NCBI GenBank assembly: GCA_001790815.1
Contig: MGDU01000021.1
Coordinates: forward strand, 1-44,861
Direction: 5' to 3'
Length of the DNA stretch: 44,861 nucleotides
Origin: Candidatus Uhrbacteria bacterium RIFCSPHIGHO2_02_FULL_46_47
Lineage (GTDB): Bacteria; Patescibacteriota; Patescibacteriia; GWA2-47-26
The position numbers and the translations under genes are program-made. The notes under the pieces were generated by a model, which did not search any database, was not told the origin of the DNA, and saw only the letters and a list, made by a program, of their open reading frames with translations. Positions 27,337 to 44,861 of this stretch are shown one piece after another. Position 1 is the stretch's first letter. The number at the start of each line of letters is the position of its first letter.

Positions 27337-28860
27337 TTAGGTTCCTTCTTCCCATGAACTTAAATACTTTCTTTGTTCATCTGTAAGTTCATCCTTGCGT
27401 ATTGCCATTGCATTGAGCTGAAGTTGCGCAATAGTATCGTCAATTTCAGGGGGAAGGGTATAGACTTTCCCCTCACCTGACCTTCGGTCTTCCTCTCCCC
27501 CAGGGAGAGGGCGGGGTGAGGGCGCAAAATTGCGTACTAACCATTCGCATGCCAAAGCTTGGCCGCAAAACGAAAGCGACATTACTTCCGACGGATGCCC
27601 CTCTGCCGCAGCAAGATTTACCAGTCGCCCTTCACCGGCAACAAAAATCACCTTCCCCTCACCTGACCTGCGGTCTCCCTCTCCCGTAGGGAGAGGGAGG
27701 GGTGAGGGAATTGTATACTCATCTAACATATCTCTCACCCTTCTGACATTGACCGCCATCTCACGCAAACCTTGCAAATCAATCTCCGCGTCAAAATGTC
27801 CGGAGTTCGCCAATATTGCTCCTGACTTCATTTTTGCAAAATGTTCCGGACGCAAAACATGTTTATCGCCGGTGACGGTGATAAAAATATCACCAAGTGC
27901 CGCGGCATCTAGAAGCGGCATCACCCTAAACCCATCCATCACGGCTTGCAGGGCGCGAAACGCATCCACTTCGCACACAACTACGTTTGATCCCATGCCT
28001 TTTGCACGAAGTGCTACACCCTTTCCGCATGAACCGTAACCGCAAACCACCACAGTTTTTCCTGCCCACAAAATATTGGTGGCGCGCGTAATACCGTCCA
28101 GCGTTGACTGCCCAGTGCCATAATAATTATCCATCAAATGTTTGGTTTTGTTGTCATTTACCGCCACCACCGGATATTTAAGCGCACCATCGCGCTCCAT
28201 AGCGCGCAAGCGGATCAGTCCAGTCGTGGTTTCCTCCGTACCGCCAATAAGATGTGGGATCAAATCCGGATGCTTTTTGTGAATTTCCCCCACCAAATCG
28301 CCTCCGTCGTCAATGGTGATGAGACATTGTCGTAACCCCTCCTCGCCTCCCCGCGCCCTTTGGGGAGGAACCAAACCAACATCCCCCCTCTTAAGGTAAG
28401 AGGGGGTAGGGGGAGTTATGTCACTTGGCATTTGGTTATTGGAATTTGTTTGTAATTTGGAATTTGTGATTTGGAATTTCAAAACCTCAATCACCTGATT
28501 CAAGTTCTCATAGTACTCCTCATTCGTTTCGCCCTTATGTGCAAAAACTGCCACACCTTCTTGTGCAAGCGCGGCCGCCACATCATCTTGGGTTGAAAGC
28601 GGATTGCAACCGGTAATTGCAACCTGCGCGCCTCCGGCGCGCAAGGTACGCACCAGCATCGCAGTTTCTTTAGTTACATGAAGCGCCATGCCAATCGTAA
28701 GCCCGGCAAACGGCTTTTCACGCTCAAAACGCTTACGCACCTCTAAAAGCGCGCCCATGCGCCGCTCGGCCAATTCCATCTGCAATTGCCCCTGCGTCGC
28801 AAGTGCAATATCTTTTACTTTATATGCTTCCATATAGTTGGACGATTCTATCAAAATCAC
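27337..28860 (-). CDS. ahcY: Adenosylhomocysteinase with repeat-derived in-frame insertions
   Basis: 507 aa; ITGCNPLSTQDDVAAAL, TIDDGGDLV, TTTGLIRLRAM, VVCGYGSCGKGVALRAKGMG, GEGRLVNLAAAEGHPSEVM. Confidence 0.93.
   Translation of the reverse strand: MILIESSNYMEAYKVKDIALATQGQLQMELAERRMGALLEVRKRFEREKPFAGLTIGMALHVTKETAMLVRTLRAGGAQVAITGCNPLSTQDDVAAALAQEGVAVFAHKGETNEEYYENLNQVIEVLKFQITNSKLQTNSNNQMPSDITPPTPSYLKRGDVGLVPPQRARGGEEGLRQCLITIDDGGDLVGEIHKKHPDLIPHLIGGTEETTTGLIRLRAMERDGALKYPVVAVNDNKTKHLMDNYYGTGQSTLDGITRATNILWAGKTVVVCGYGSCGKGVALRAKGMGSNVVVCEVDAFRALQAVMDGFRVMPLLDAAALGDIFITVTGDKHVLRPEHFAKMKSGAILANSGHFDAEIDLQGLREMAVNVRRVRDMLDEYTIPSPLPLPTGEGDRRSGEGKVIFVAGEGRLVNLAAAEGHPSEVMSLSFCGQALACEWLVRNFAPSPRPLPGGEEDRRSGEGKVYTLPPEIDDTIAQLQLNAMAIRKDELTDEQRKYLSSWEEGT
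27469..27522. repeat. Palindromic element (family 1) in ahcY, encodes PSPRPLPGGEEDRRSGEGK
   Basis: CCCCTCACCTGACCTTCGGTCTTCCTCTCCCCCAGGGAGAGGGCGGGGTGAGGG. Confidence 0.9.
27655..27708. repeat. Palindromic element (family 1) in ahcY, encodes PSPLPLPTGEGDRRSGEGK
   Basis: CCCCTCACCTGACCTGCGGTCTCCCTCTCCCGTAGGGAGAGGGAGGGGTGAGGG; near-identical to 27469-27522. Confidence 0.92.
28335..28370. repeat. Palindromic element (family 1-like) in ahcY, encodes PPQRARGGEEG
   Basis: CCCCTCCTCGCCTCCCCGCGCCCTTTGGGGAGG. Confidence 0.7.
28382..28420. repeat. 39-nt palindromic repeat (family 2), copy 2, in ahcY, encodes ITPPTPSYLKRGD
   Basis: TCCCCCCTCTTAAGGTAAGAGGGGGTAGGGGGAGTTATG; 38/39 identical to 13117-13155. 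Confidence 0.93.
28424..28480. repeat. Short-word degenerate tract inside ahcY (TTTGGAATTTGTGATTTGGAATTT words)
   Basis: Repeated TTGGAATTTG words; encodes LKFQITNSKLQTNSNNQ. Confidence 0.75.
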
Positions 28861-31164: not shown

Positions 31165-32229
31165 CTACACGAGACTCTCTCCATAATTGGTTTTATATCT
31201 TAGCAATACTTGTCTCCACGTAAATCCGTGCGTTTGCGTTCCATATTTCTCCACGGTGTATACCGCCACTGTTGACGCGAGTTTACCTACTTTATCATAC
31301 GGCAATCCAAGTAGCAATCCTTTAATCAATCCTGCGCGATACGCGTCTCCTGCGCCGGTAGGATCGCTCGTATTCTTCGGTTTCGCCGGAGGAATAATGA
31401 ATTTCATAATTCCACCATCACCCTGCCCTCTCCCTAAGGGAGAGGGAAGCCGCAGGCCGGGTGAGGGAAATCGGGAGGGGTTACTTGCTTTAATGATCGA
31501 ACCTTTGTCGCCTAAGGTAGTGACGAGTATGCTCACCTTCTGTAATAATCCGCGTTCTGTCAAGCCAGTTTTTTTCAAAACCATCGCCAGTTCATAATCA
31601 TTTGAAATAAATACCCGCGCGCCCGTAACTCCTTGTTGCAAATCTTTTCCGGAAAGCGCGGGGATTGCTTGTCCCGGATCATAAATATAAGGCACGCCAT
31701 ACTTTTTATACAACACCGGCAAAGTTTTCATATCCTCCAAATTCCCCGGGCTTACAATCGCCATCTTCGCCCCTTGCGCTACACGCTTCACGTTACACGT
31801 TACACGATTTGCCATCGCTCCCGGATAAAACGCGGTGATCTGATTATCGGATTTATCGGTCATAATATACGCCCCTGCCGTTGGCAAATCTTGCACTTGC
31901 CGCACGCATGAAAGATCAACCTCGTAGCGCGGCACTTTATGTGCCGCCAAGCGGGGCATAAAGCCCCGCGCTACGCGATGAAGTGATTGAAACCACTTCC
32001 TATAATCACCAAAATCCTTTCCTACACTTGCAAGAATTGTCGGCTTCTCCCCAAGCAAGGCCAAATTATACGCGATATTTCCTGCGGTGCCTCCAAAATT
32101 CCGCTCCATTTTATCAATCAAAAAAGAGACGGAGAGCACATGGAGTTTTTCCGGCAAAATATGATCCCGGAAATATCCGGGAAAATCCATAATGTAATCG
32201 TAGGCAAGTGATCCTGACACCAGTATCAT
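31165..32229 (-). CDS. PfkB-family carbohydrate/adenosine kinase with repeat-derived insertions
   Basis: 354 aa; RNFGGTAGNIAYNLALLGEKP, LVTTLGDKGSII, DPTGAGDAYRAGLIKGLL. Confidence 0.87.
   Translation of the reverse strand: MILVSGSLAYDYIMDFPGYFRDHILPEKLHVLSVSFLIDKMERNFGGTAGNIAYNLALLGEKPTILASVGKDFGDYRKWFQSLHRVARGFMPRLAAHKVPRYEVDLSCVRQVQDLPTAGAYIMTDKSDNQITAFYPGAMANRVTCNVKRVAQGAKMAIVSPGNLEDMKTLPVLYKKYGVPYIYDPGQAIPALSGKDLQQGVTGARVFISNDYELAMVLKKTGLTERGLLQKVSILVTTLGDKGSIIKASNPSRFPSPGLRLPSPLGRGQGDGGIMKFIIPPAKPKNTSDPTGAGDAYRAGLIKGLLLGLPYDKVGKLASTVAVYTVEKYGTQTHGFTWRQVLLRYKTNYGESLV
31415..31467. repeat. Palindromic element (family 1) in the PfkB gene, encodes PSPGLRLPSPLGRGQGDGG
   Basis: CCATCACCCTGCCCTCTCCCTAAGGGAGAGGGAAGCCGCAGGCCGGGTGAGGG. 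Confidence 0.9.
31923..31975. repeat. Palindromic element (family 3) in the PfkB gene, encodes RVARGFMPRLAAHKVPRYE
   Basis: CGTAGCGCGGCACTTTATGTGCCGCCAAGCGGGGCATAAAGCCCCGCGCTACG; two nested hairpins, outer arms CGTAGCGCGG/CCGCGCTACG. Confidence 0.88.
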
Positions 32230-32346: not shown

Positions 32347-33717
32347 TCAAGGTCTTCCAACAGAAATATAAGTAAAGCCAAGGTCGCGCATTGATTTTGG
32401 ATCTAAAAGGTTGCGGCCGTCGAGTACGATCGGCTGGCGCATTTTTTCTTTCATGGTGCCCCAAGGCAAATCCCGAAACTCAGACCACTCCGTAAGAAGC
32501 AAGAGTGCATCCGCATCTTTGGCAACTTCTTGCGGAGCCGGACAAGTAATAAGTTCAGGCAGGGCGGCGCGTGCATTTCCTTCCGCGTGCGGATCATACG
32601 CGCGCACCTGCGCTCCTTCTTTAATAAGCCAGGCGGAAATATCCACCGCGGCAGATTCCCGCACATCATCAGTATTGTTTTTAAATGCAAGGCCAAGAAT
32701 GCCGATTTTTTTGCCTTCAAGCGTGCCAAGCGTTTGCCGTATTTTTTGCAAAAAATGCCGGCGTTGCGTTTGATTGACTTCAATCACAGCTTTGAGCAAT
32801 TTAAAATCATAATCATGCCAAAACGCGATAGAATGGAGCGCTTTGGTATCCTTGGGAAAGCAAGCTCCGCCATAGCCAATGCCGGCTTTTAAAAATGCCG
32901 GACCAATGCGCGGATCCATTCCCATGCCGCGTGCCACCTCATCAACATTTGCCCCGACTTCGTCGCAAAGATTGGCGATCTCATTGATAAAGGAAATTTT
33001 TGTTGCCAAGAAAGCATTACTGGCGTACTTAAGCATCTCCGCAGTGGCAATATCGGTAACCAGACGCTCACCCGGCAATCCTTCGTGCACTTTGAGGAGC
33101 ATATCGCGCGCCCGATCCGAGTCAACGCCGATTACGACGCGATCGGGATTCATTGTGTCATGCACGGCCGAACCTTCGCGCAAAAATTCCGGACACGACG
33201 CCACATCAAAGTCACATTTTACATTTTGCATTTTTAATTTTACATTCTCCTCAATAACCTTCCGCACCTTCTCCGCTGTCCCCACCGGCACTGTGCTTTT
33301 ATCTACGATGACTTTGTATGTCTCCTCACCCGATCTCGCCTTCGCTCGATCACCCTCTCCCTTAGGGAGAGGGGAGGGTGAGGGTCCCCAATTTTCCGCA
33401 ACTTCCTTCGCGGCCGCAAATACTTGCGACAAATCCGCCTCGCCAGAAGGCAAGGGCGGAGTGCCTACGCACAAGAAAATCACCTCGGCCTTTGGCACAG
33501 CTTCGGCATAAGAAGTAGTGGGAATAAGCCGGCCACTGGCCACGCCCTCGGCCACGAGCTCAGGCAGTCCGGGTTCATAAAACGGCACTTGCCCGCGTTT
33601 GAGCATTGCCACTTTCTCCGCGTCTTTGCGCACAGCAAAAACCGTATGTCCAAGTTTGGCATACACCGCGGCTGAAGTGAGCCCGACATAACCGGCGCCG
33701 ATAATTGCTATTTGCAT
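32347..33717 (-). CDS. ugd: UDP-glucose 6-dehydrogenase with repeat-derived insertions
   Basis: MQIAIIGAGYVGLTSAAVYAKLGHTV start (33717); KSTVPVGTAEKV, CPEFLREGSAV, FLKAGIGYGGACFPKDTKAL. Confidence 0.93.
   Translation of the reverse strand: MQIAIIGAGYVGLTSAAVYAKLGHTVFAVRKDAEKVAMLKRGQVPFYEPGLPELVAEGVASGRLIPTTSYAEAVPKAEVIFLCVGTPPLPSGEADLSQVFAAAKEVAENWGPSPSPLPKGEGDRAKARSGEETYKVIVDKSTVPVGTAEKVRKVIEENVKLKMQNVKCDFDVASCPEFLREGSAVHDTMNPDRVVIGVDSDRARDMLLKVHEGLPGERLVTDIATAEMLKYASNAFLATKISFINEIANLCDEVGANVDEVARGMGMDPRIGPAFLKAGIGYGGACFPKDTKALHSIAFWHDYDFKLLKAVIEVNQTQRRHFLQKIRQTLGTLEGKKIGILGLAFKNNTDDVRESAAVDISAWLIKEGAQVRAYDPHAEGNARAALPELITCPAPQEVAKDADALLLLTEWSEFRDLPWGTMKEKMRQPIVLDGRNLLDPKSMRDLGFTYISVGRP
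33324..33384. repeat. Palindromic element (family 1) in ugd, encodes PSPSPLPKGEGDRAKARSGEE
   Basis: CCTCACCCGATCTCGCCTTCGCTCGATCACCCTCTCCCTTAGGGAGAGGGGAGGGTGAGGG. Confidence 0.92.
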
Positions 33718-33810: not shown

Positions 33811-36417
33811 CTACTGCGTTACGATGTTGATTAACTTCCCTTTCACAAATATCACATCCTTGACTTCTTGTCCATGAAACCACTTGGCAACTTTCTCATT
33901 TTGAAAAGCCAGCACCTTGGCTTCTTCCTCTGAAATATCTACCGACACGCGCACAAGATCGCGCACTTTCCCATTGACTTGAATCACGAGCTCAATTTCC
34001 TCATCCTTCACAAGCGCGGGGTCATATTTGGACCACGGTTGCTGACACAACATACCCTCACCCTCCCCTCTCCCTAAGGGAGAGGGTGGCCGTAGGCCCG
34101 GTGAGGGGCGATGTATTCTGTTCCACAACTCCTCCGTAATGTGCGGCGCAAAAGGATGCAACAAAGTCAATAATAACTCATAACTCGTAACACTTAACTT
34201 ATCTTCTTTACTCATCTCATTCACCAGCGTCATCATTGCAGCAATCGCGGTATTAAACTTCATTGCCTCAATATCCCCAGTTACTTTCTTTATTGTCTTA
34301 TGCAGAAGTCGCTCAACACTGGTCTCGCTTATCTTGCTGGTCTCGCTTATCTTGCTTCCCAATTGCCACACTTTCTCCAAAAACCTCTGCACCCCGGCAA
34401 TAGATTTTGTACTCCACGGCACGGCTTGATCAAACGGCCCCATAAACATTTCGTAAAGCCGCAGGGTATCAGCCCCATATTGTTTTATGATATCATCGGG
34501 ATTTACCACATTGCCCCGCGACTTGGACATTTTTTCGCCATCTTCACCAAGAATAATCCCGTGGCTGGTGCGCTTTTTGTACGGCTCGCGCGTCGGTACC
34601 ACTCCAATATCATACAAAAACTGATTCCAGAAACGTGAATACAACAAATGCAGTACCGTATGCTCCATCCCGCCGTTATACCAGTCCACCCCTCCCCTAA
34701 CCCCTCCCACAAGGGGAGGGGGATTTCCTATTGCTTCCTCTCCCTTGATGGGAGAGGATTGAGGTGAGGGTGATCCCATCCAATACTTCAATTTCTCCAT
34801 GGACGCAAACTCTTTATTATTGTGCGGATCACAATATCTTAAAAAATACCACGAAGATCCAGCCCAATTCGGCATTGTATCGGTTTCCCGTCGTGCCGGT
34901 CCGCCGCAGCGCGGACACTTTGTCTTGACCCACTTTTCCATCGCCGCCAGCGGCGACTCACCCGTATCTGTGGGTTGATATTTTTCCACCTTCGGCAGTT
35001 TTAATGGTAATGCACTTTCTGGAATAGACACCCACTCCTTACATTTGTCACACCACACAAGTGGAATCGGTTCGCCCCAATACCGCTGGCGAGAAAACAC
35101 CCAATCACGAAGTTTGTAGGTAACTTTTCGCGTTCCACCAACCGACTCCGTAATTTTCCATTTTGCAGTTTCATGGGCTAGCCCATTGAACCGCCCAGAG
35201 TTTATAAGAATGCCCGGGCCAGTGTAGGCACCACCATCACCCTCCCCTCTCCCTGAGGGAGAGGGAAAGTTTTTAGATCCGCCTCTACCCGCGGGAGAGG
35301 ATGGCCGTAGGCCAGGTGAGGGGGAAACCACCTCGCGCACCTTTAATCCAAATTTCTTCGCGAACTCAAAATCGCGCCCGTCGTGCCCGGGCACGGCCAT
35401 GATGGCGCCAGTGCCATAACCAGCCAAAACATAATCCGCCACCCAAATCGGGATTTCTTCTTTGGTGGCAGGATTAATTGCTTTGATTCCCTTTAATTCC
35501 ACTCCTGTTTTTTCACGCTCCACATTCATCCGCTCTTGTTCTGTTTTCTTTTTCACCGTATCAATATACTTTTCCACCTCATCCCAATTTTTAATTTTTA
35601 ATTTTACATTCTTAATTATCTTGTGCTCCGGCGCCAGCACCATATATGTTGCGCCAAACAAAGTATCCGGCCGCGTGGTAAAAACCTCAATCTTGTCTGT
35701 GAACTGTGAACTGACGACTGTGAACTGCAAAAGCGCACCAGTGCTTTTGCCTATCCAATTCTCCTGCTGAACTTTCGCACGCTCAATATAGTCAACGTCT
35801 TTCAGTCCTTCCAAAAGTTTGTCGGCATATTTAGTAATTGCCAGCATCCATTGTTCTTTTTCACGCTTCTCCACTGCCGTACCGCAACGCTCGCAACAGC
35901 CATCCACTACTTCTTCATTGGCCAATCCGATTTTATCTTTGGGACACCAATTAATAGTCATCTTTTTTTTGTATGCCAGACCGTGCTTAAAAAATTGCAA
36001 AAAAATCCACTGCGTCCATTTATAATAAGAAGGGTCGCTGGTCGTTACTGCTCTGTCCCAATCAAAACTAAACCCAAGCATTTTTAACTGCTTAGTAAAA
36101 TTGGCAATATTTTCTTTAGTAATCTCGGAGGGCGGTCGCCCGGTTTTGATGGCGTAGTTTTCCGTTGGCAAGCCAAACGAATCAAACCCAATCGGAAAAA
36201 GCACGTTATATCCTTCCATTCTGCGTTTGCGCGCGATAATATCCATCGCGGTATAGGAACGCGGATGCCCCACATGCAAACCTTCGCCGGAAGGATAAGG
36301 AAATTCTATCAGCGCGTAAAACTTCGGCCGCGGATCATTGTCCCTCGCAACAAATACACCTTCCTTTTCCCACTTTTTTTGCCACTTTTTTTCTATTTTG
36401 AGATGATTATACTTTTT
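33811..36417 (-). CDS. leuS: Leucyl-tRNA synthetase with repeat-derived insertions
   Basis: KWQKKWEKEGVF, FPYPSGEGLHVGHPRSYTAMDIIAR, VFTTRPDTLFGATYMVLAPEH, EKMSKSRGNVVNPDDII. Confidence 0.96.
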   Translation of the reverse strand, partial: KKYNHLKIEKKWQKKWEKEGVFVARDNDPRPKFYALIEFPYPSGEGLHVGHPRSYTAMDIIARKRRMEGYNVLFPIGFDSFGLPTENYAIKTGRPPSEITKENIANFTKQLKMLGFSFDWDRAVTTSDPSYYKWTQWIFLQFFKHGLAYKKKMTINWCPKDKIGLANEEVVDGCCERCGTAVEKREKEQWMLAITKYADKLLEGLKDVDYIERAKVQQENWIGKSTGALLQFTVVSSQFTDKIEVFTTRPDTLFGATYMVLAPEHKIIKNVKLKIKNWDEVEKYIDTVKKKTEQERMNVEREKTGVELKGIKAINPATKEEIPIWVADYVLAGYGTGAIMAVPGHDGRDFEFAKKFGLKVREVVSPSPGLRPSSPAGRGGSKNFPSPSGRGEGDGGAYTGPGILINSGRFNGLAHETAKWKITESVGGTRKVTYKLRDWVFSRQRYWGEPIPLVWCDKCKEWVSIPESALPLKLPKVEKYQPTDTGESPLAAMEKWVKTKCPRCGGPARRETDTMPNWAGSSWYFLRYCDPHNNKEFASMEKLKYWMGSPSPQSSPIKGEEAIGNPPPLVGGVRGGVDWYNGGMEHTVLHLLYSRFWNQFLYDIGVVPTREPYKKRTSHGIILGEDGEKMSKSRGNVVNPDDIIKQYGADTLRLYEMFMGPFDQAVPWSTKSIAGVQRFLEKVWQLGSKISETSKISETSVERLLHKTIKKVTGDIEAMKFNTAIAAMMTLVNEMSKEDKLSVTSYELLLTLLHPFAPHITEELWNRIHRPSPGLRPPSPLGRGEGEGMLCQQPWSKYDPALVKDEEIELVIQVNGKVRDLVRVSVDISEEEAKVLAFQNEKVAKWFHGQEVKDVIFVKGKLINIVTQ
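34055..34108. repeat. Palindromic element (family 1) in leuS, encodes PSPGLRPPSPLGRGEGEG
   Basis: CCCTCACCCTCCCCTCTCCCTAAGGGAGAGGGTGGCCGTAGGCCCGGTGAGGGG. Confidence 0.93.
34687..34772. repeat. Composite palindromic elements in leuS, encode PSPQSSPIKGEEAIGNPPPLVGGVRGGV
   Basis: CACCCCTCCCCTAACCCCTCCCACAAGGGGAGGGGG plus CCTCTCCCTTGATGGGAGAGGATTGAGGTGAGGGTGA. Confidence 0.85.
35232..35323. repeat. Composite palindromic elements (family 1) in leuS, encode PSPGLRPSSPAGRGGSKNFPSPSGRGEGDGG
   Basis: CCATCACCCTCCCCTCTCCCTGAGGGAGAGGG then CTACCCGCGGGAGAGGATGGCCGTAGGCCAGGTGAGGGGG. Confidence 0.9.
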
Positions 36418-36482
36418 CATACATTTGTAAAATTGTATCACTAAATTGATAAAAAAGAAATGTCCGGCCCTATTATGGCATA

Positions 36483-36640: not shown

Positions 36641-37228
36641 ATGAAATACGAAAAAAAGTCTATTTCTGACATATTGCGATCTGCCAAGACGGTCTTTACC
36701 TTTAAAGACATTTCTTTGATTTGGGGAGACAGCGATAAAAAAGCCACGATTGACGGAGTTAATTACTATGTAAAAACCGGTGAGTTGTACCGTATCCGCC
36801 GGGGTATTTATGCCAAGGATAAGAACTACGACAAATTGGAATTGGCGACCAGAATATTTACGCCTTCCTATGTGAGCTTTGAGACGGTCTTAGCTCAAAC
36901 CGGCATCAACTTTCAGTTTTATAAAAAGATTACGGTTGCGTCGTACCAAACGCGCGAGATTGAAGTTGACGGGCAGGTATACTCCTACAAAAAAATTAAG
37001 GATTTCGTTTTGACCAACCCTGCCGGTGTTGAGCATAAAGACGAAACTTCCTTTGCCGGTCCGGAGCGCGCATTTTTGGACACGATCTATATTCACAAGG
37101 ATTATCATTTTGATAATTTGGGCTCTTTGAATTGGGATAAGATTTTTGAAATGTTACCTATCTATAAAAACAAGCGAATGGCGAAAAAGGTTAATGAGTT
37201 CTTCGATCACTATAAAGCCACGAAATAA
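36641..37228 (+). CDS. abiEi: AbiEi-family antitoxin/transcriptional regulator (type IV TA)
   Basis: 195 aa; N-terminal wHTH-like region, YRIRRGIYAKDKNYDKLELATRIFTPSYVSFETVLAQTG typical of AbiEi; 2 nt before the AbiEii ORF. Confidence 0.85.
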   Translation: MKYEKKSISDILRSAKTVFTFKDISLIWGDSDKKATIDGVNYYVKTGELYRIRRGIYAKDKNYDKLELATRIFTPSYVSFETVLAQTGINFQFYKKITVASYQTREIEVDGQVYSYKKIKDFVLTNPAGVEHKDETSFAGPERAFLDTIYIHKDYHFDNLGSLNWDKIFEMLPIYKNKRMAKKVNEFFDHYKATK

Positions 37229-37230
37229 TT

Positions 37231-37935
37231 ATGACTAATACTACTTTTGATATATCGGTTCACAAAAATATTCTCTTCCAGATTCTGAAAGATATTTATT
37301 CCGATACCACGATCGCGCCCTTGCTGGGCTTCAAGGGCGGTACGGCCGCTTTGATGTTTTTTGCGCTGAACAGGTTCTCTGTTGACTTGGATTTTGATTT
37401 GTTGGACAAAAGCAAAGAAGATTATGTTTTTGACCGAATTGAGCAAATCGCCAAAAAATACGGCTCGATCAAAGAAATGGGGCGAAAGCGTTTTAATTTA
37501 TTGTTCGTGCTCTCGTACGAAGACAATGCCCGCAAGATAAAAATTGAGATCAATCGTCGGGCATTCGGGTCCCGCTATGAGTTAAAAACAAACTTGGGAG
37601 TCTCCATGCTGGTCATGGCGAGAGAAGATATGTTTGCTCACAAGTTGATGGCTATGCATGAACGGGTCGGCAAAACCAGCCGTGATATTTATGATGTCTG
37701 GTTTTTTCTGGAGCATCGATGGACTATAAATAAGGAGATCGTAGAGAAGCGGGCTGGTATGACATTTCCCGAATTGATGCAGAAATGTATTGGACAGTTA
37801 GAGAAAATGAATAACCGTAATATCTTAGACGGCTTAGGAGATTTACTGACCGAATCTCAAAAAGACTGGGTGCGGGCAAAATTGCGAACCGAGACAATCT
37901 TTTTATTAAAAGCTTGGTTAGAAAGCGAAAAATAA
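37231..37935 (+). CDS. abiEii: AbiEii-family nucleotidyltransferase toxin
   Basis: 234 aa; FKGGTAALMFFALNRFSVDLDFDLL, AREDMFAHKLMAMHERVGKTSRDIYDVWFFL. Confidence 0.9.
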   Translation: MTNTTFDISVHKNILFQILKDIYSDTTIAPLLGFKGGTAALMFFALNRFSVDLDFDLLDKSKEDYVFDRIEQIAKKYGSIKEMGRKRFNLLFVLSYEDNARKIKIEINRRAFGSRYELKTNLGVSMLVMAREDMFAHKLMAMHERVGKTSRDIYDVWFFLEHRWTINKEIVEKRAGMTFPELMQKCIGQLEKMNNRNILDGLGDLLTESQKDWVRAKLRTETIFLLKAWLESEK

Positions 37936-37938
37936 AAT

Positions 37939-38142
37939 ATGCCAAAGGAAATCGCCAACAAAACCAAAGGAGAGACCTACTACAAATGCACTCATTGCGG
38001 AGATGAGATTTACTGGAATACGCACAAGAAAATGATTATGTGCAAATGCGGGGCTCTCGGAGTGGATGGATGCGAATTTTATGTGCGGCTCATCGGCGAT
38101 GAGGCCGATCGAGAAGAAATTAAAAAGGTAAGAAAATTATGA
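37939..38142 (+). CDS. Small zinc-ribbon-like protein
   Basis: 67 aa; YYKCTHCGDEIYWNTHKKMIMCKCGALGVDGCEFYVR; 3 nt after AbiEii, ATGA overlap with the next ORF. Confidence 0.7.
   Translation: MPKEIANKTKGETYYKCTHCGDEIYWNTHKKMIMCKCGALGVDGCEFYVRLIGDEADREEIKKVRKL
37945..38011 (+). repeat. Direct repeat copy 1 (zinc-ribbon coding segment)
   Basis: AAGGAAATCGCCAACAAAACC...CTACTACAAATGCACTCATTGCGGAGATGAGATTT, near-identical to 39442-39509. Confidence 0.92.
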
Positions 38143-38436
38143 AAATAAAAGATCTGCCAAAAATTGTTCCCTGTTTGTCCAAGAGCAAAGCGATTGGCAA
38201 CAAACAGCAATCCGCCTCTGGCGGAATAGGCCACGAGAGAAGCTTGTCGCAAAAGAAGATGACGGGCGTTGAGATTATGGATCATGTCATTGTTTCCAAA
38301 AACAGCCGCTTCAGCTTCAAAGAAAAAAAATTACTATGAACGTTTTGTTTATATCTACCCTGCTAATGTAAACAAAAGCGCTGAAAAAGTTTATATTACT
38401 CAAATAGAACAACTAATTGATAATATGCACATATGA
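38139..38436 (+). CDS. Small protein split over two frames at an A8 run (38139-38339 and a 50-aa ORF 38284-38436)
   Basis: ATGA overlaps with the upstream zinc-ribbon gene and the downstream BRO gene; fusing frames at the A8 tract gives ...SRFSFKEKK/NYYERFVYIYPANVNKSAEKVYITQIEQLIDNMHI. Confidence 0.45.
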
Positions 38437-39284
38437 ACGAAGAAAATAATAGTATTGTAGAAAATACAAAAATCGCATTGTTTAAGGGCAAGAAAATCCG
38501 CAAAATACTTTTTCAAAATGAGTGGTGGTTTTCAGTTATTGATGTCATAGAAGCACTTACGGATAGTGATCGCCCCAGTGTTTATTGGACAGCAATGAAG
38601 GCGAGGGTTAAAGATGAGAGCGAATTTCAACTATCTACAATTTGTAGACAGTTGAAATTACTGGCAGAGGACGGCAAAATGCGCGAAACAGATTGTGCGG
38701 ATACAGAAGGCATTTTCCGTATCATTCAGTCAATTCCATCGCCAAAAGCCGAGCCATTTAAATGTTGGCTGGCAAAAGTCGGCTATGAACGAGTGCAAGA
38801 AATAGAAAATCCGGAATTGGCAACGAAGCGGACAAAAACACTGTACAAACTCAAGGGGTATCCGGAAGATTGGATAGAAAAAAGGATGCGCGGTATTGCG
38901 ATTCGTGAAGAACTGACTGATGAATGGCAAAAACGAGGAGCTAAGGAGCAGAAAGATTACGAGATTTTAACGGCGGAAATATCCAAAGCCACTTTTGGTA
39001 TTACTCCAAGTGAATATAAAAAAGCCAAAGGATTAAAACGAGAAAATTTGCGCGACCATATGGATGATTTTGAGCTGATTTTTAATATGCTTGGTGAACG
39101 CGCCACAACCGAAATTCACCGCACGGAAGATTCAAAAGGCGTGCCAAAGTTAAAAGCAGATGCGAAAGCAGGAGGAGATATTGCCGGTGGAGCAAGAAAA
39201 AAGCTGGAAGAGCGGCTTGGCCGGTCTATCGTAACAAAGAAAAATTTTATGAAAAACCCCGAAGGTAAAAAGAAGTTGAAATAA
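38433..39284 (+). CDS. BRO-N domain (phage antirepressor / DinD-like) protein
   Basis: 283 aa; KIRKILFQNEWWFSVIDVIEALTDSDRPSVYWTAMKAR...; C-terminal half conserved-looking. Confidence 0.8.
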   Translation: MNEENNSIVENTKIALFKGKKIRKILFQNEWWFSVIDVIEALTDSDRPSVYWTAMKARVKDESEFQLSTICRQLKLLAEDGKMRETDCADTEGIFRIIQSIPSPKAEPFKCWLAKVGYERVQEIENPELATKRTKTLYKLKGYPEDWIEKRMRGIAIREELTDEWQKRGAKEQKDYEILTAEISKATFGITPSEYKKAKGLKRENLRDHMDDFELIFNMLGERATTEIHRTEDSKGVPKLKADAKAGGDIAGGARKKLEERLGRSIVTKKNFMKNPEGKKKLK

Positions 39285-39288
39285 TGTT

Positions 39289-39504
39289 ATGAATACTCAA
39301 ATCAAAAACCTGGAGGACAGACTATGGGAGGCGGCGGATCATATGCGCGCCAATTCTCCCTTGCGCCTCAACGAATTTGCCGAGCCGGTTTTAGGTTTGA
39401 TCTTCCTGAAGTTCGCTGGCGTGAAATTCAGCAAAACCCAGAAGGAAATCGCCAACAAAAATCAAAGAAGAAACTTACTACAAATGCACTCATTGCGGAG
39501 ATGA
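39289..39504 (+). pseudogene. N-terminal remnant of a type I restriction-modification methyltransferase (HsdM) fused out of frame to a second zinc-ribbon copy
   Basis: LEDRLWEAADHMRANSPLRLNEFAEPVLGLIFLKFAGVKF is HsdM N-terminal; it then enters the repeat at 39442-39509 in the wrong frame and stops. Confidence 0.8.
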
Positions 39505-39509
39505 GATTT
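39442..39509 (+). repeat. Direct repeat copy 2 (frameshifted zinc-ribbon segment)
   Basis: AAGGAAATCGCCAACAAAAATCAAAGAAGAAACTTACTACAAATGCACTCATTGCGGAGATGAGATTT; 1-nt insertion relative to 37945-38011. Confidence 0.92.
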
Positions 39510-39531
39510 TTGACCATGGCGAATTATTGAA

Positions 39532-42500
39532 ATGACTATGGATTTATCACAATTACCATTTCAAGCAAAAACATTAAAGAGAGCCATAACTCCTGACAAA
39601 TATAGTTTGTATCGGGCGGCTCTTGAGTGGGACCTGGTAGAACCCATTGTCATTGAAGATAGAGAAGATATGCGATCGGAAAGTAAATGGCGCGATCGTG
39701 TTGAACCATACCATCATCAAGTTACAAACCTTATTTCTTTTTGTCGTCGTCTTCCCGTTACTTTATTAGCAGATGATGTAGGGCTTGGAAAAACAATTAG
39801 CGCCGGACTGGTTGCTAGTGAACTTATTTCGCGGGGGAGAATTTCAAAAATATTAGTCGTTTGTCCTAAAATCCTTCGTGAGCAGTGGAAGGAGGAATTG
39901 GATATAAAATTTGACATCCCTTCAGTTATCGTGACTGGCAAAGAGCTTATTACAGCAGAACCTCCGGAAGAACCAGGAGCCGTAATAACAACTTATAACA
40001 CTGCTCGATTATACCTCGATAGAATAAAGCAAGACGGCTTCGACATGTTGATACTCGACGAAGCACACAAATTACGCAACCTCTACGGTGTTGACCCAAC
40101 ACCCCAAGTTGCGCAAAGATTTCGGAAGGCGCTATCGGACAGATTATTTAAATACGTGTTGATGCTAACAGCTACCCCGATACAAAATCGGCTTTGGGAT
40201 CTTTATTCTTTGGTAGATTTATTGACTATTGCACGAGGACATGAAAATCCCTTTGGTAATCAAGGCACATTTGCTCGAAAATTTATAGCTGATAGTCGGA
40301 CTACGGCGCGTCAACTTAAACCCGAAATGCGTGATGAATTCCGGTCAATTGTATACGGGTATATGTCGCGTGTACGTCGGGGTGATGCAAAACTACACTT
40401 TCCAGAGCGAAAAGTGCAGCTCCATAAAGTTGACCCATCTGACAAAGAACTTGAGCTTTTCAAAGTAATTGCTAAGCCGATTCAACAACTCAACTATCTT
40501 TCACAAATAGTAATTCTGCAGGCGCTTATCAGTAGTCCTGAGGCTTTAGTTAAGTTACTTGCAGGGATGGCGGCGAAGGATACCGCACCAAAATCATTAG
40601 CAAAGGATGTGAAAGAGATCGCAAAAGATATTCACACCACGACGAAACTAAAAGGACTAGGTGCCTTAATTGAAAAATTAAAAGCAGAGCAACCAGACAC
40701 ATGGCGCGTGGTTGTATTTACTCGATGGAGAGAAACACAAACTGCGATTCAGAATTTTCTTGAAAAGCAGAAAATTTCATGCGGACTTATAAATGGCGAT
40801 TCCAATACAAGAAACCAAGAAACTATTACAAGATTCAAAAAAGATTTGCCAGAAGTCCACGTTATTGTCTCAACTGAAGCTGGTTCTGAAGGAGTTAACT
40901 TACAAGCTGCAAATGTTCTGGTCAATTATGATTTACCCTGGAATCCGATGATAGTTGAACAGCGAATTGGTCGCATTCAACGTTTGTCCTCTAATTTTGC
41001 AAACGTATCTATTTTTAATATCGTATTGAAAAACACTTTTGAGGAATACATCGTTGGCCGACTAATGGAAAAATTGCAGTTGGCCTCGCATGCAATCGGA
41101 GACATCGAAGCGCTACTTGAGGCGTCAGGAATAGATGAGAGTGAGGAAAACGGTTCCAGTGGTTTTGAGGAGAAGATTCGACAGTTAGTTGTCGCTTCGT
41201 TGGCTGGTAAAGATGTTGAGCAAGCAACACGCAAAGCAGAAAAAAGTATTACGGATGCCAAAACAGAGCTAGAGCGAGAAGAGAAGAATATTAATTCACT
41301 GCTTGGGGGTATGGGCGATACATTAGATTCCAGTCCTCGTTGTCCGAAATTACCACAAGCAGAGCGGTCAATGGATGCTCGAGCTTTTGTGTTGACGGCA
41401 TTAACCGAGTTGGGAGCAAAACTAAAGAAAGAACCAGAAGGCTTATATATCTCACAACTCGCTGGGAAAAGAGAACTGATCCGTTTTGATAACAACAACC
41501 TAAGTGAAAAAGGCGAAAGTGTTTTGTATGCCCCTGGCACTGCAACATTTGAGCGTCTTGTGAGTAAAATTACAAACACAGGTTTACACTTAGTTGACGA
41601 CAATGATCAAAAACCACTTCTCCGCACCGAAGATATTGCAAAAAAATGGTCTGAAAGTTTTGGGGCTTCCTTCAAAATAATGGACGTTCAAGATGTATCA
41701 AGGTGTTTTACTGGTAAAGCTCTGTTACGAGTTCGCGCAACTGTGGCTCACGATAGTTACGAGCGACTGGTTGAAGTAGAATGTGCCCCAAATGAACATT
41801 TTAATTTCGTCACAAAGACTGGGCTTGAACCGATTGGAGACCAAATAGAAAATCCTACGTCTATTGGCGCGCTTTCCAAGAAACTAGCAGAAAAAGCGAT
41901 GCAGGATCCAAATATTTTAGATTTTTGTCGTTTTTATACCGAAAGAAGAGAACAAGAAGTTGCTTCGGCTGGCAGTGACATACGCAAAAAGAAGAAGCTC
42001 GAAGATGAATTTACTCCGAGACTTGAGATTTCTTTAGTTGGTCTTGAGGGAACGGTTCATAGAGATTTAAAAACTCGGGTATTTTACAGATTTGATGCAG
42101 ACGGTGAATATAATAGCTTGCTGACTATAACTCCTTCATTGGAAAAAGTGATTGCGCCAGAAATGGGTAAATGTATGAAAACAGGAAAGATAGTGCCGCG
42201 GGATTGCTTAAGCCAGTGTGCGATTACTAAACAAATAGCGTTACGACATCTACTTGCTCAATCAGAAATAAGCGAACGATTTGCTTATCCAGAGCATACT
42301 GTTTTATGTGCGTTTAGCCACAAGCGTGTTTTGATTGATGAGGCGGAAAAATCAGCTGTTACAGGAGAAATGGTTGCGAAAAAATTTCTAAAAACGTCTC
42401 TTTTGAGTGGTAAACACGCTGAGCCACAATACTTTGGAATATGTGAATTTACTAAATCAGAAGTTCTCGAAAGTGAATTGGCGGTGAGTCAAATTTCTGG

Positions 42501-43059
42501 AAAAAAGTACCGAATTGATGAGCAGTTAAAGTCAGTTGTTTCGGGAAAGACTGGTCATAAGCAAGAGTTTGTATCAAGCAATATATCTAGTGCTCATCTT
42601 CTTGAAGCGGAAGCTATACGCTCCATTATCGGCAACTTTTGTTCTCCGCCGGAAGCAAGACCCTGCTCATGGAGTGGTCGCAAATGTCATCCAGAAGATC
42701 TAAAGAACTGTGAATTAACAGGTGTATCGATATATTCTGAATATATATCTGCGCAACCCCCTTCTCGCTTAGAGTTATTATTTAATCTTTTGAATGGAAC
42801 TAGGAAAAAATCGGATAAGCCCGAATTATGGCCAACGATAAGTAGTTATGTATCTTCTTCACTTAAGGGTGGTAAATGCAAAGTTGAAGCCGCGGAATTA
42901 TCGCCTGGCGGCAAAAATTTAGCAGTTACGCTAGAAGTTAGAACATGGATTGGTCTAAAAATCCGTCATGCGGGCTTGATCTACTCTTTTCAAGATAATG
43001 CGACTATTGGGCGCATTGTAACCGGAAAACGAGGAGATAATGGGTGGGTTCAATCTTAA
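39532..43059 (+). CDS. SNF2/SWI2-family helicase-like protein with C-terminal Cys/Ser-knuckle repeats
   Basis: 1175 aa; [85 protein letters not shown]. Confidence 0.93.
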   Translation: [1175 protein letters not shown]

Positions 43060-43064
43060 ATACT

Positions 43065-44555
43065 ATGCCTATTACACTTACAAAAACCGACTATATTCTT
43101 TATAGGGAATGCCCGAAGAATGTTTGGTATAAAATCCATAAGCCGGATGTATATTCTGAATCGGAATTGTCGGAGTTTGAGAAATCAATTATGGAAATCG
43201 GCAATGAAGTTGAGTTGGTAGCGAGAAAATTATTTCCAACCGGAATTTTGATTGAGCGCAGGGATGCAAAAGCACAAGAAACCACTCAAAATTACATCGC
43301 AAAAAAGCAAGAAGTATTATTTCAGCCAATCTTTGTTAAAGATGACTATTTGGCGGCTATTGATATATTAAAGTTTGAACCAGAGACAGATAGCTATTCA
43401 GTATATGAGGTTAAATCAACAAATGATGTTGACAATAAAACTCATTATCACGACCTATCTTTCCAAATAAATTTGCTTAAAAAACATGGTTTGAAAATAG
43501 ATAAGGCATATATTATTCATCTAAATTCCGGATATGTTCGTTCTGGCGAGATTGATATTACAAAACTTTTCAAAATTGTCGATGTAAGTAGCGAAGTAGA
43601 AAGTATCGCTGAAAGTGTAGCCATTGAATCAGTAGAAGCACTCAAATATCTTTCGCAAGATAACGAACCGAATGGTTATTGCTGTTGTATATACAAAGGT
43701 AGATCAAAACACTGCTCGACATTTCAACATGCCAATCCAGATGTTCCAGAATATAGTGTTCACGACATAGCACGCATAGGAAACAGTAAGGCAAAGCTGA
43801 AGGAATTAATTGATAACAATATTTTTCATCTCAATACAATCCCGTCCCATATCAAGCTAACCGACATTCAGCAGGGCCAAGTTGACACATATATTTTGAA
43901 TAAGGTTTTGGTTGAAAAAGATAAAATCAAAGCAGAGTTTGATACTTTAACATTCCCCCTATACTTTTTAGATTACGAAACTTTTCCGGCAGCAATTCCA
44001 AGATTTGACGGCTTTTCTCCTTACAATCAAATACCGTTCCAATATTCCGTTGATGTTTTGAAGTCGCCAGAGAGCAAACCGGAACATTACGAATTTTTAC
44101 ACGTTGCTTCCGATGATCCGAGTAAACTATTTGCTGAATCGTTGCAAAAACATTTGGGTACAACTGGGAGTATTATTGTTTGGCACAAAGGGTTTGAGTG
44201 CGGAAGAAACGACGAGATTGCAATTAGAATTCCTGAAATGAAATCGTTTATGGATTCCTTGAAGGGGCGCGTTTATGATTTGGAAGATATTTTTAGAAAA
44301 CAATATCACATACACCGAGACTTCAGGGGTGGCACTTCCATAAAAAGAATTTTGCCCGTTCTTGTTTCCGAATTATCCTATAAAGAACTTGAAATACGAG
44401 ATGGAGGAAGTGCCGCAGATACCTGGAATAAAATCGTAAGCGGTAATTTTAACGACACAGACAAAGAGAAAGCCGTAAATGATTTAACAATATATTGTGG
44501 GCTTGATACTTATGCAATGTATGCGATATGGCGAGCTCTTCATAAGCTTCTATAA
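43065..44555 (+). CDS. DUF2779-like protein: N-terminal PD-(D/E)XK/Cas4-like nuclease and C-terminal DEDD-type exonuclease-like region
   Basis: MPITLTKTDYILYRECPKNVWYKIHKPD start; AAIDILKF...YSVYEVKST; LYFLDYETFPAAIPRFDGFSPYNQIPFQYSVDVL; IYCGLDTYAMYAIWRALH. Confidence 0.8.
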   Translation: MPITLTKTDYILYRECPKNVWYKIHKPDVYSESELSEFEKSIMEIGNEVELVARKLFPTGILIERRDAKAQETTQNYIAKKQEVLFQPIFVKDDYLAAIDILKFEPETDSYSVYEVKSTNDVDNKTHYHDLSFQINLLKKHGLKIDKAYIIHLNSGYVRSGEIDITKLFKIVDVSSEVESIAESVAIESVEALKYLSQDNEPNGYCCCIYKGRSKHCSTFQHANPDVPEYSVHDIARIGNSKAKLKELIDNNIFHLNTIPSHIKLTDIQQGQVDTYILNKVLVEKDKIKAEFDTLTFPLYFLDYETFPAAIPRFDGFSPYNQIPFQYSVDVLKSPESKPEHYEFLHVASDDPSKLFAESLQKHLGTTGSIIVWHKGFECGRNDEIAIRIPEMKSFMDSLKGRVYDLEDIFRKQYHIHRDFRGGTSIKRILPVLVSELSYKELEIRDGGSAADTWNKIVSGNFNDTDKEKAVNDLTIYCGLDTYAMYAIWRALHKLL

Positions 44556-44558
44556 AAT

Positions 44559-44861
44559 ATGGTCAAAGATTTTCAAAAAATAGTATGTCCGACTTGCAAA
44601 GCTGAAATCTCGCTTAATGAGGCTATTACTCATCAGTTACAGGAAACGATAAAAAAGGAGATGATGGAGGAACAGCAAGTTAAAAATGTTGAGTTTGCAA
44701 AAAGGGAAAAAGAGATTACTGAAAAAGAAAAAACGGTTACTGAATCAAGAAAATCAGTAGAAAAAGAAGTAGCCGAGCAAACAGAAAAAGCCAAGATTGA
44801 ACTAGAAAAAGAAATCAGAAGCAAACTCTCAAAGGAAAAAGACGGCGAAATTAGTGCTTTA
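44559..44861 (+). CDS. DUF2130-like protein, N-terminus only (truncated by window end)
   Basis: MVKDFQKIVCPTCKAEISLNEAITHQLQETIKKEMMEEQQVKNVEFAKREKEITEKEK...; zinc-knuckle plus coiled coil, open to the window end. Confidence 0.7.
   Translation, partial: MVKDFQKIVCPTCKAEISLNEAITHQLQETIKKEMMEEQQVKNVEFAKREKEITEKEKTVTESRKSVEKEVAEQTEKAKIELEKEIRSKLSKEKDGEISAL

Follow-up and report, generated by a model that had tools for sequence, protein, structure and literature searches.

A RapA-like SNF2 translocase and a Cas4-like nuclease as a candidate defense cassette in a Patescibacteria genome

We describe a group of genes, centered on a RapA-like SNF2 translocase and a predicted nuclease of family DUF2779, at the end of contig MGDU01000021.1 of Candidatus Uhrbacteria bacterium RIFCSPHIGHO2_02_FULL_46_47 (assembly GCA_001790815.1), a member of the Patescibacteria. 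The window that we analyzed is the entire contig of 44,861 bases, from a source genome of 1.02 Mb in 27 contigs, a size in keeping with this phylum. The finding is confined to the plus strand between 36,641 and the right end of the contig (44861). Open reading frames (ORFs) to the left of 36,442 lie on the minus strand, and the last of them encode products resembling UDP-glucose dehydrogenase and leucyl-tRNA synthetase (named by reading the sequence, not by hidden Markov model). A sequence-only reading of this DNA had proposed that nine genes in the stretch form one compact operon encoding an undescribed defense system. All of the ORFs that it named are present on the plus strand, close to where it had placed them, and its family calls hold in Pfam and PADLOC searches (for DUF2130, through relatives of the N-terminus). 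The genes at the core of this report are as follows.

39532 to 43059, plus strand: RapA-like SNF2 translocase of 1175 amino acids (SNF2_N 1e-28, Helicase_C 1e-20); the probable true start is the ATG at 39538.
42172 to 42756, plus strand: array of 15-residue tandem repeats within the SNF2 protein (amino acids 881 to about 1075), with consensus [CS]xx[ST]G[KR]xxLxxEL.
43044 to 44555, plus strand: DUF2779 protein, a predicted Cas4-like PD-(D/E)XK nuclease plus DEDDy 3'-5' exonuclease (Pfam 4e-37, weak Cas4 match); the probable true start is the ATG at 43065.
44559 to 44861, plus strand: N-terminus (101 amino acids) of a probable DUF2130 protein, with a CPxC zinc knuckle and a coiled coil, cut by the contig end.

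The SNF2 protein carries both helicase domains, with conserved GLGKT and DEAH motifs, and its sequence is strongly conserved whatever its neighbors; K87 is the Walker A residue in window numbering. In profile and fold searches it lies nearest to RapA, which is the best Protein Data Bank (PDB) match, with about 950 columns aligned over the core plus the following domain. The predicted model has a mean pLDDT (predicted local distance difference test) of 86 and a predicted template modeling score (pTM) of 0.61. None of the existing models in PADLOC or NCBIfam accounts for the protein. The proposed likeness to the DISARM helicase DrmD extends no further than shared membership of the RapA-like SNF2 class: the protein scores 217 bits, against a curated NCBIfam cut-off of 610. 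Scores and cut-offs for other families are 178 and 500 for DpdE, 162 and 1100 for the PLD (phospholipase D) helicase NF042964, 118 and 576 for RapA, and 68 and 1500 for ZorD.

The adjacent gene belongs to PF11074 (DUF2779), with 127.6 bits against a cut-off of 23.3, and its earlier description as a double nuclease agrees with the predicted Cas4-like and DEDDy exonuclease domains. Residues invariant in 11 nuclease homologues include, in window numbering, E57, D107, K124, D310, E312, D412, Y484 and D488, of which K124 belongs to the PD-(D/E)XK site, and D310, E312, Y484 and D488 to the DEDDy site. An AlphaFold model (mean pLDDT 74, 11 rows) matches Cas4, the Cas4-family protein ACE1, MGME1 and, more weakly, DinG. 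Two nuclease subfamilies, DUF2779 and RNase_H_2/COG2251-like, join in iterated profile searches and share invariant residues.

Comparison with related loci (labeled L) delimits the mobile part of the stretch. Window and L004 share one contiguous block of 5,031 bases at 80% DNA identity, running from the SNF2 start to the DUF2779 end, with unrelated flanks. Against L003 (82% DNA identity), homology ends at 43078, 14 nucleotides past the likely nuclease start, and L003 continues with a nuclease of the other, RNase_H_2/COG2251-like subfamily rather than DUF2779. Because homology stops at the gene boundary and a different subfamily follows, the nuclease partner has been exchanged. Judging from these alignments, the SNF2-DUF2779 block is probably the mobile cassette itself.

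A single scan yielded 66 loci with relatives, most of them full-length members, at about 50-90% identity. Full-length members occur in Patescibacteria, Nitrospirota, Pseudomonadota, Acidobacteriota, Lentisphaerota and Planctomycetota, and the SNF2 and nuclease of the window have their nearest counterparts in other Patescibacteria (Liptonbacteria and Giovannonibacteria genomes). In 287 genomes of the phylum, a full-length match was seen only in the genome of the window itself; the remaining matches are generic helicase cores. The presence of so similar a protein in many phyla, yet in only one of these 287 genomes, argues for horizontal spread. Carriage by phages was considered and dropped, as no full-length SNF2 match was found in plasmid and isolate-phage collections, and IMG/VR gave only generic SNF2 cores with 24-36% identity.

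The nuclease is a recurrent neighbor. Nine Patescibacteria loci have a readable full-length SNF2 gene, and in eight of them (window, L003, L004, L005, L008, L018, L019 and L045) a nuclease gene lies within 0.9 kb; contact is direct in seven, that is, in all of these except L018. The ninth locus, L009, has DUF2130 in place of the nuclease. In L018 (366-6757, Gracilibacteria), the nuclease is convergent with SNF2 at about 0.87 kb; the two genes show only when TGA is read as sense (table 25), and ORF callers using table 11 miss the locus. Outside Patescibacteria, a nuclease adjoins SNF2 in L013, L015, L025, L026 and L056, lies 7.9 kb away in L012, and is present as a fragment in L006. Most pairs are separated by 0-76 nucleotides or overlap slightly. 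Nuclease-family matches number 0-4 per genome, usually one or two; for a random single copy among about 900 genes, seven direct contacts in nine loci would have P of about 1e-17, a figure that ignores shared ancestry and defense-island clustering. On the SNF2 tree, nuclease adjacency changed at least seven times, with L006 counted as adjacent and L018 and L056 left out; some deep branches of this tree are open, and its Planctomycetota rows are long.

The last ORF of the window escapes Pfam because the contig ends at 44861, before the DUF2130 domain (PF09903) would begin. However, the N-terminus is shared with proven DUF2130 proteins: its 101 amino acids find nine other Patescibacteria genes, and since all four of those scanned encode DUF2130 proteins, the ORF most probably belongs to this family. 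A conserved D...ExK pattern, seen by eye in the relatives, predicts a nuclease of PD-(D/E)XK type. DUF2130 adjoins SNF2 in five loci (window, L008, L009, L025 and L032), three of which hold the full triad, and the order SNF2-nuclease-DUF2130 is common to the window and L025; in the L008 triad the genes run DUF2130-SNF2-nuclease. The genomes of the loci contain 0-3 DUF2130 copies each. The suggested co-occurrence of the three genes is therefore borne out in part: the grouping recurs in other genomes, but the triad is not fixed. As had been supposed, the grouping stands outside named systems, in that no PADLOC or NCBIfam model claims it.

The C-terminal part of the SNF2 protein holds the repeat array, in which each 15-residue unit is predicted, with pLDDT of about 85, to form a short strand-turn-strand. 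Strict motif counts are 8 in the window, 21 in L020, 34 in L054 and 64 in L050. When degenerate units are included, the counts rise to about 12 for the window and more than 80 for L050, which gives the family a range of roughly 12 to more than 80 units. The window array lacks part of the units present in most relatives. In L050, super-periods of 3, 6 and 12 units (45, 90 and 180 amino acids) look as they might after repeated duplication. The repeat gave no match at E<=1 among PDB sequences, and the 1,565-amino-acid tail of L050 gave neither a Pfam match above cut-off nor a PDB sequence match; the 15-residue repeat is undescribed, being absent from Pfam and PDB sequences.

Planctomycetota provide the largest arrays, expanded to dozens of units in SNF2 homologues of 2465 amino acids (L050:4899-12296) and 1912 amino acids (L054:9908-15646). 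In further proteins from this phylum (L183:619-1968 and L182:1-2718), 15-residue units are mixed with CxxC zinc-ribbon motifs; one of these is a 450-amino-acid ORF in which no SNF2 domain is evident by eye. Because related repeats are mixed with zinc-ribbon motifs in this way, the repeat may plausibly have arisen from zinc-ribbon-like units.

Upstream of SNF2, the stretch contains the following features.

36641 to 37228, plus strand: AbiEi antitoxin-like regulator (PADLOC AbiEi E=3e-61), an intact neighbor outside the cassette.
37231 to 37935, plus strand: AbiEii nucleotidyltransferase toxin (Pfam 7e-19; PADLOC 1e-81), an intact neighbor.
37939 to 38142, plus strand: DUF7695 zinc-ribbon peptide of 67 amino acids (Pfam E=2.6e-9).
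38139 to 38339, plus strand: RadC C-terminal remnant (debris; a "small ORF" of 66 amino acids), matching the last 26 residues of the Pfam RadC model at E=0.001, under the Pfam cut-off.
38433 to 39284, plus strand: Bro-N domain protein, PADLOC candidate PDC-S13 (Pfam 1e-13; PDC-S13 1e-117), an intact neighbor.
39289 to 39441, plus strand: HsdM N-terminal remnant (HsdM_N 4e-8 over ORF 39289-39504); the frame continues into the next fragment.
39442 to 39509, plus strand: truncated second copy of the DUF7695 gene start, a direct repeat of 37945-38011.
39519 to 39535, plus strand: tail of a lost Xre-type helix-turn-helix (HTH) gene; DNA homology begins at 39519 against L003 and at 39521 against L004.

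The idea of a single nine-gene operon is rejected on the homology boundaries and the DUF7695 direct repeat: what precedes SNF2 is pieced together from gene fragments and unlinked intact genes. AbiE, DUF7695, Bro-N and HsdM, which had been counted as parts of the unit, show no linkage to SNF2 in the relatives examined; some of this material is debris. The HsdM remnant, about 50 amino acids long and fused to other debris at a point (39441/39442) placed by the direct repeat, is not the complete HsdM/HsdS/HsdR set of type I restriction-modification. In L003 and L004, an intact Xre-type HTH gene lies a few nucleotides upstream of SNF2 (HTH_3 in L004, E=2.5e-18); the window retains only its last codons. 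Because of the direct repeat, the HTH-tail boundary and the lack of linkage of AbiE and Bro-N to SNF2 in relatives, we read the stretch 5' of SNF2 as a recombination mosaic of intact defense genes and gene debris. The DUF7695 peptide (37939-38142) directly follows AbiEii, and its gene is part-duplicated 1.5 kb downstream.

Elsewhere in the window, palindromic repeat elements of about 54-60 nucleotides, with core CCCTCTCCCTNAGGGAGAGGG, occur at 27464-27708, 31414-31467, 33326-33384, 34054-34107 and 35233-35322. Some sit in frame within the leuS-like ORF (33811-36441) and one within the ugd-like ORF, where they insert PSPGLRPPSPLGRGEGEG-type peptides into the encoded proteins; the elements are reminiscent of Rickettsia palindromic elements. 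An Rfam scan of the window gave no match.

Two other Patescibacteria loci place DUF2779 in a different setting. At L225:3793-6343 and L226:3893-6623 (both minus strand), the DUF2779 gene overlaps a retron-like reverse transcriptase gene by 11 and 26 nucleotides, respectively (PADLOC RT_VI E=1.5e-40 and 2.5e-67), and the L226 reverse transcriptase apparently has an N-terminal Xre-like HTH. Genes for a DrmD-like SNF2 protein and a type IIG-like methyltransferase lie near these pairs. No Rfam retron RNA was found. DUF2779 may serve as a retron-type effector.

The surroundings of SNF2 were compared with PADLOC models. Immediate neighbors match 107 (74 proteins) and 137 (69 proteins) models, including HerA, IetS, CBASS cyclase, Old, AriA, SngC and BREX parts. 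As a control, 72 genes more than 6.5 kb away match 47 models, mostly methyltransferase and PglX; this control is coarse, as it counts families rather than loci, one protein can match many models, and the distant genes lie partly inside islands. The comparison points to defense islands.

We consider it somewhat probable that the cassette is an SNF2 translocase-nuclease unit for DNA-degrading antiviral defense that moved horizontally into a Patescibacteria defense island. The SNF2 protein would use its RapA-like domain and repeat array to load onto invading DNA or a protein attached to it, and would then translocate and deliver or feed the DNA to one or more nucleases that degrade it. It would couple to one of several interchangeable nucleases, and the Xre-type HTH gene may originally have controlled the unit. 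A broader proposal, which we find doubtful, is that these loci form an unnamed defense family in which the expandable array, by growing and shrinking, serves as a sensor or docking surface, and invaders are handed to interchangeable nucleases of DUF2779, COG2251 and DUF2130 types. A repeat whose copy number varies several-fold inside a defense-island protein would be a plausible sensor surface.

Several observations weigh against a dedicated defense unit, in addition to the coarseness of the PADLOC control. The unit includes no modification gene to account for self-discrimination; lacking a methyltransferase, it would have to tell self from non-self by way of the RapA-like domain and repeats, by DNA ends or structure, or through a trigger protein. 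In the window's DUF2130 gene, the catalytic half falls beyond the contig end. No close nuclease is present in 34 of 46 SNF2 tree rows (including L009, which has DUF2130), and most SNF2 loci outside Patescibacteria carry neither nuclease nor DUF2130, so the nucleases are recurrent rather than obligatory partners, and SNF2 may act alone or with partners encoded elsewhere. Conversely, 57 of 380 genomes of the phylum (about 15%) have DUF2779, in general with no copy of this SNF2 gene.

The same observations (SNF2 alone at most loci outside Patescibacteria, its conservation regardless of neighbors, and the independence of DUF2779 in many genomes) would suit a stand-alone SNF2 protein, acting as a single-gene defense or as a stress or repair factor of the RapA class, with nuclease and DUF2130 merely gathering as island neighbors. 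We judge this possible but rather unlikely, because the tight spacing, the at least seven adjacency changes and the nuclease in eight of nine Patescibacteria loci exceed what island clustering would lead one to expect, and because nuclease subfamilies are swapped exactly at the gene boundary. A housekeeping role, in which the SNF2 protein recycles RNA polymerase as RapA does or stalled forks are repaired, the nuclease being a repair enzyme, would agree with RapA as the best solved-structure match and with the known roles of Cas4 and DEDD nucleases in repair. It seems improbable for a gene that is patchily present (1 of 287 phylum genomes), exchanged between phyla, surrounded by variable neighbors rich in defense families, and scored at 118 bits by the NCBI RapA family, whose cut-off is 576. 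Finally, the RadC, HsdM, DUF7695 and HTH fragments directly upstream, together with the missing repeat units, might suggest the decayed, non-functional end of a defense island. However, SNF2 and DUF2779 can be read through 4.9 kb in unbroken frames with their catalytic residues preserved, and L003 and L004 miss the same repeat units yet are intact, which makes decay very improbable.

A SNF2-nuclease defense cassette has its closest parallels in systems built around SNF2 helicases. DISARM (DrmD) and Dpd (DpdE), both among the best profile matches, likewise place a RapA-like SNF2 helicase in a defense island, but the window protein scores far under both cut-offs, and its unit lacks DUF1998, PLD, methyltransferase and deazaguanine genes. 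Indeed, DrmA, DrmB (DUF1998), DrmC (PLD) and methyltransferase are absent from the nine ORFs of the plus-strand stretch, up to the contig end, and are not recurrent around homologues; no sign of the 15-residue array was found in the matches to the DrmD and DpdE families. Zorya fits no better, with no ZorA or ZorB among the window ORFs and a ZorD score of 68 bits against 1500. The helicase-PLD single-protein system (NF042964), probably that of Sather et al. 2023 as cited in PMC12839542, resembles the cassette in that SNF2 helicase and nuclease are coupled in a single conserved module, but in the cassette the nuclease has a different fold and a gene of its own. RapA (HepA) itself aligns over the core and following domain, whereas the window protein adds the repeat array and is not distributed as a housekeeping gene.

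Pairing of a RapA-architecture SNF2 protein with a nuclease, as in the cassette, is known from BREX type 3 (BrxHII), "BR" systems and ARMADA (ArmA) (PMC12839542, PMC12458937). The cassette differs in having no methyltransferase, PglZ/BrxC-type or YprA-type partner, and in a Cas4-like plus DEDDy nuclease rather than a Vsr, HKD or other PD-(D/E)XK fusion. PglZ, BrxC-like ATPase and methyltransferase are absent from the window ORFs scanned, and BrxD and BrxHI each occur beside a single homologue only. For the nuclease, DUF2779 and COG2251 (families F.13 and F.17) have been placed among presumed 3'-5' exonucleases containing DUF83 (PMC3985635). The window protein, a DUF2779 member, shares their architecture of DUF83 (Cas4-like) plus RNase H-like 3'-5' exonuclease; that treatment is a domain classification, and its DUF2779 and COG2251 passages mention no SNF2 partner. 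The SNF2-nuclease pairing was not found in literature on DUF2130, DUF2779, TM0106/COG2251 and SNF2 defense, which is weak evidence given incomplete coverage. We rate the cassette as belonging to SNF2-plus-nuclease defense, an already known kind, with the repeat array as its unusual feature. It brings to SNF2-centered defense a compact and widely transferred unit of motor plus nuclease, unnamed and unmodeled in the libraries searched, in a phylum whose defenses are poorly known, and it ties DUF2779 and DUF2130, families of unknown function, to a testable setting.

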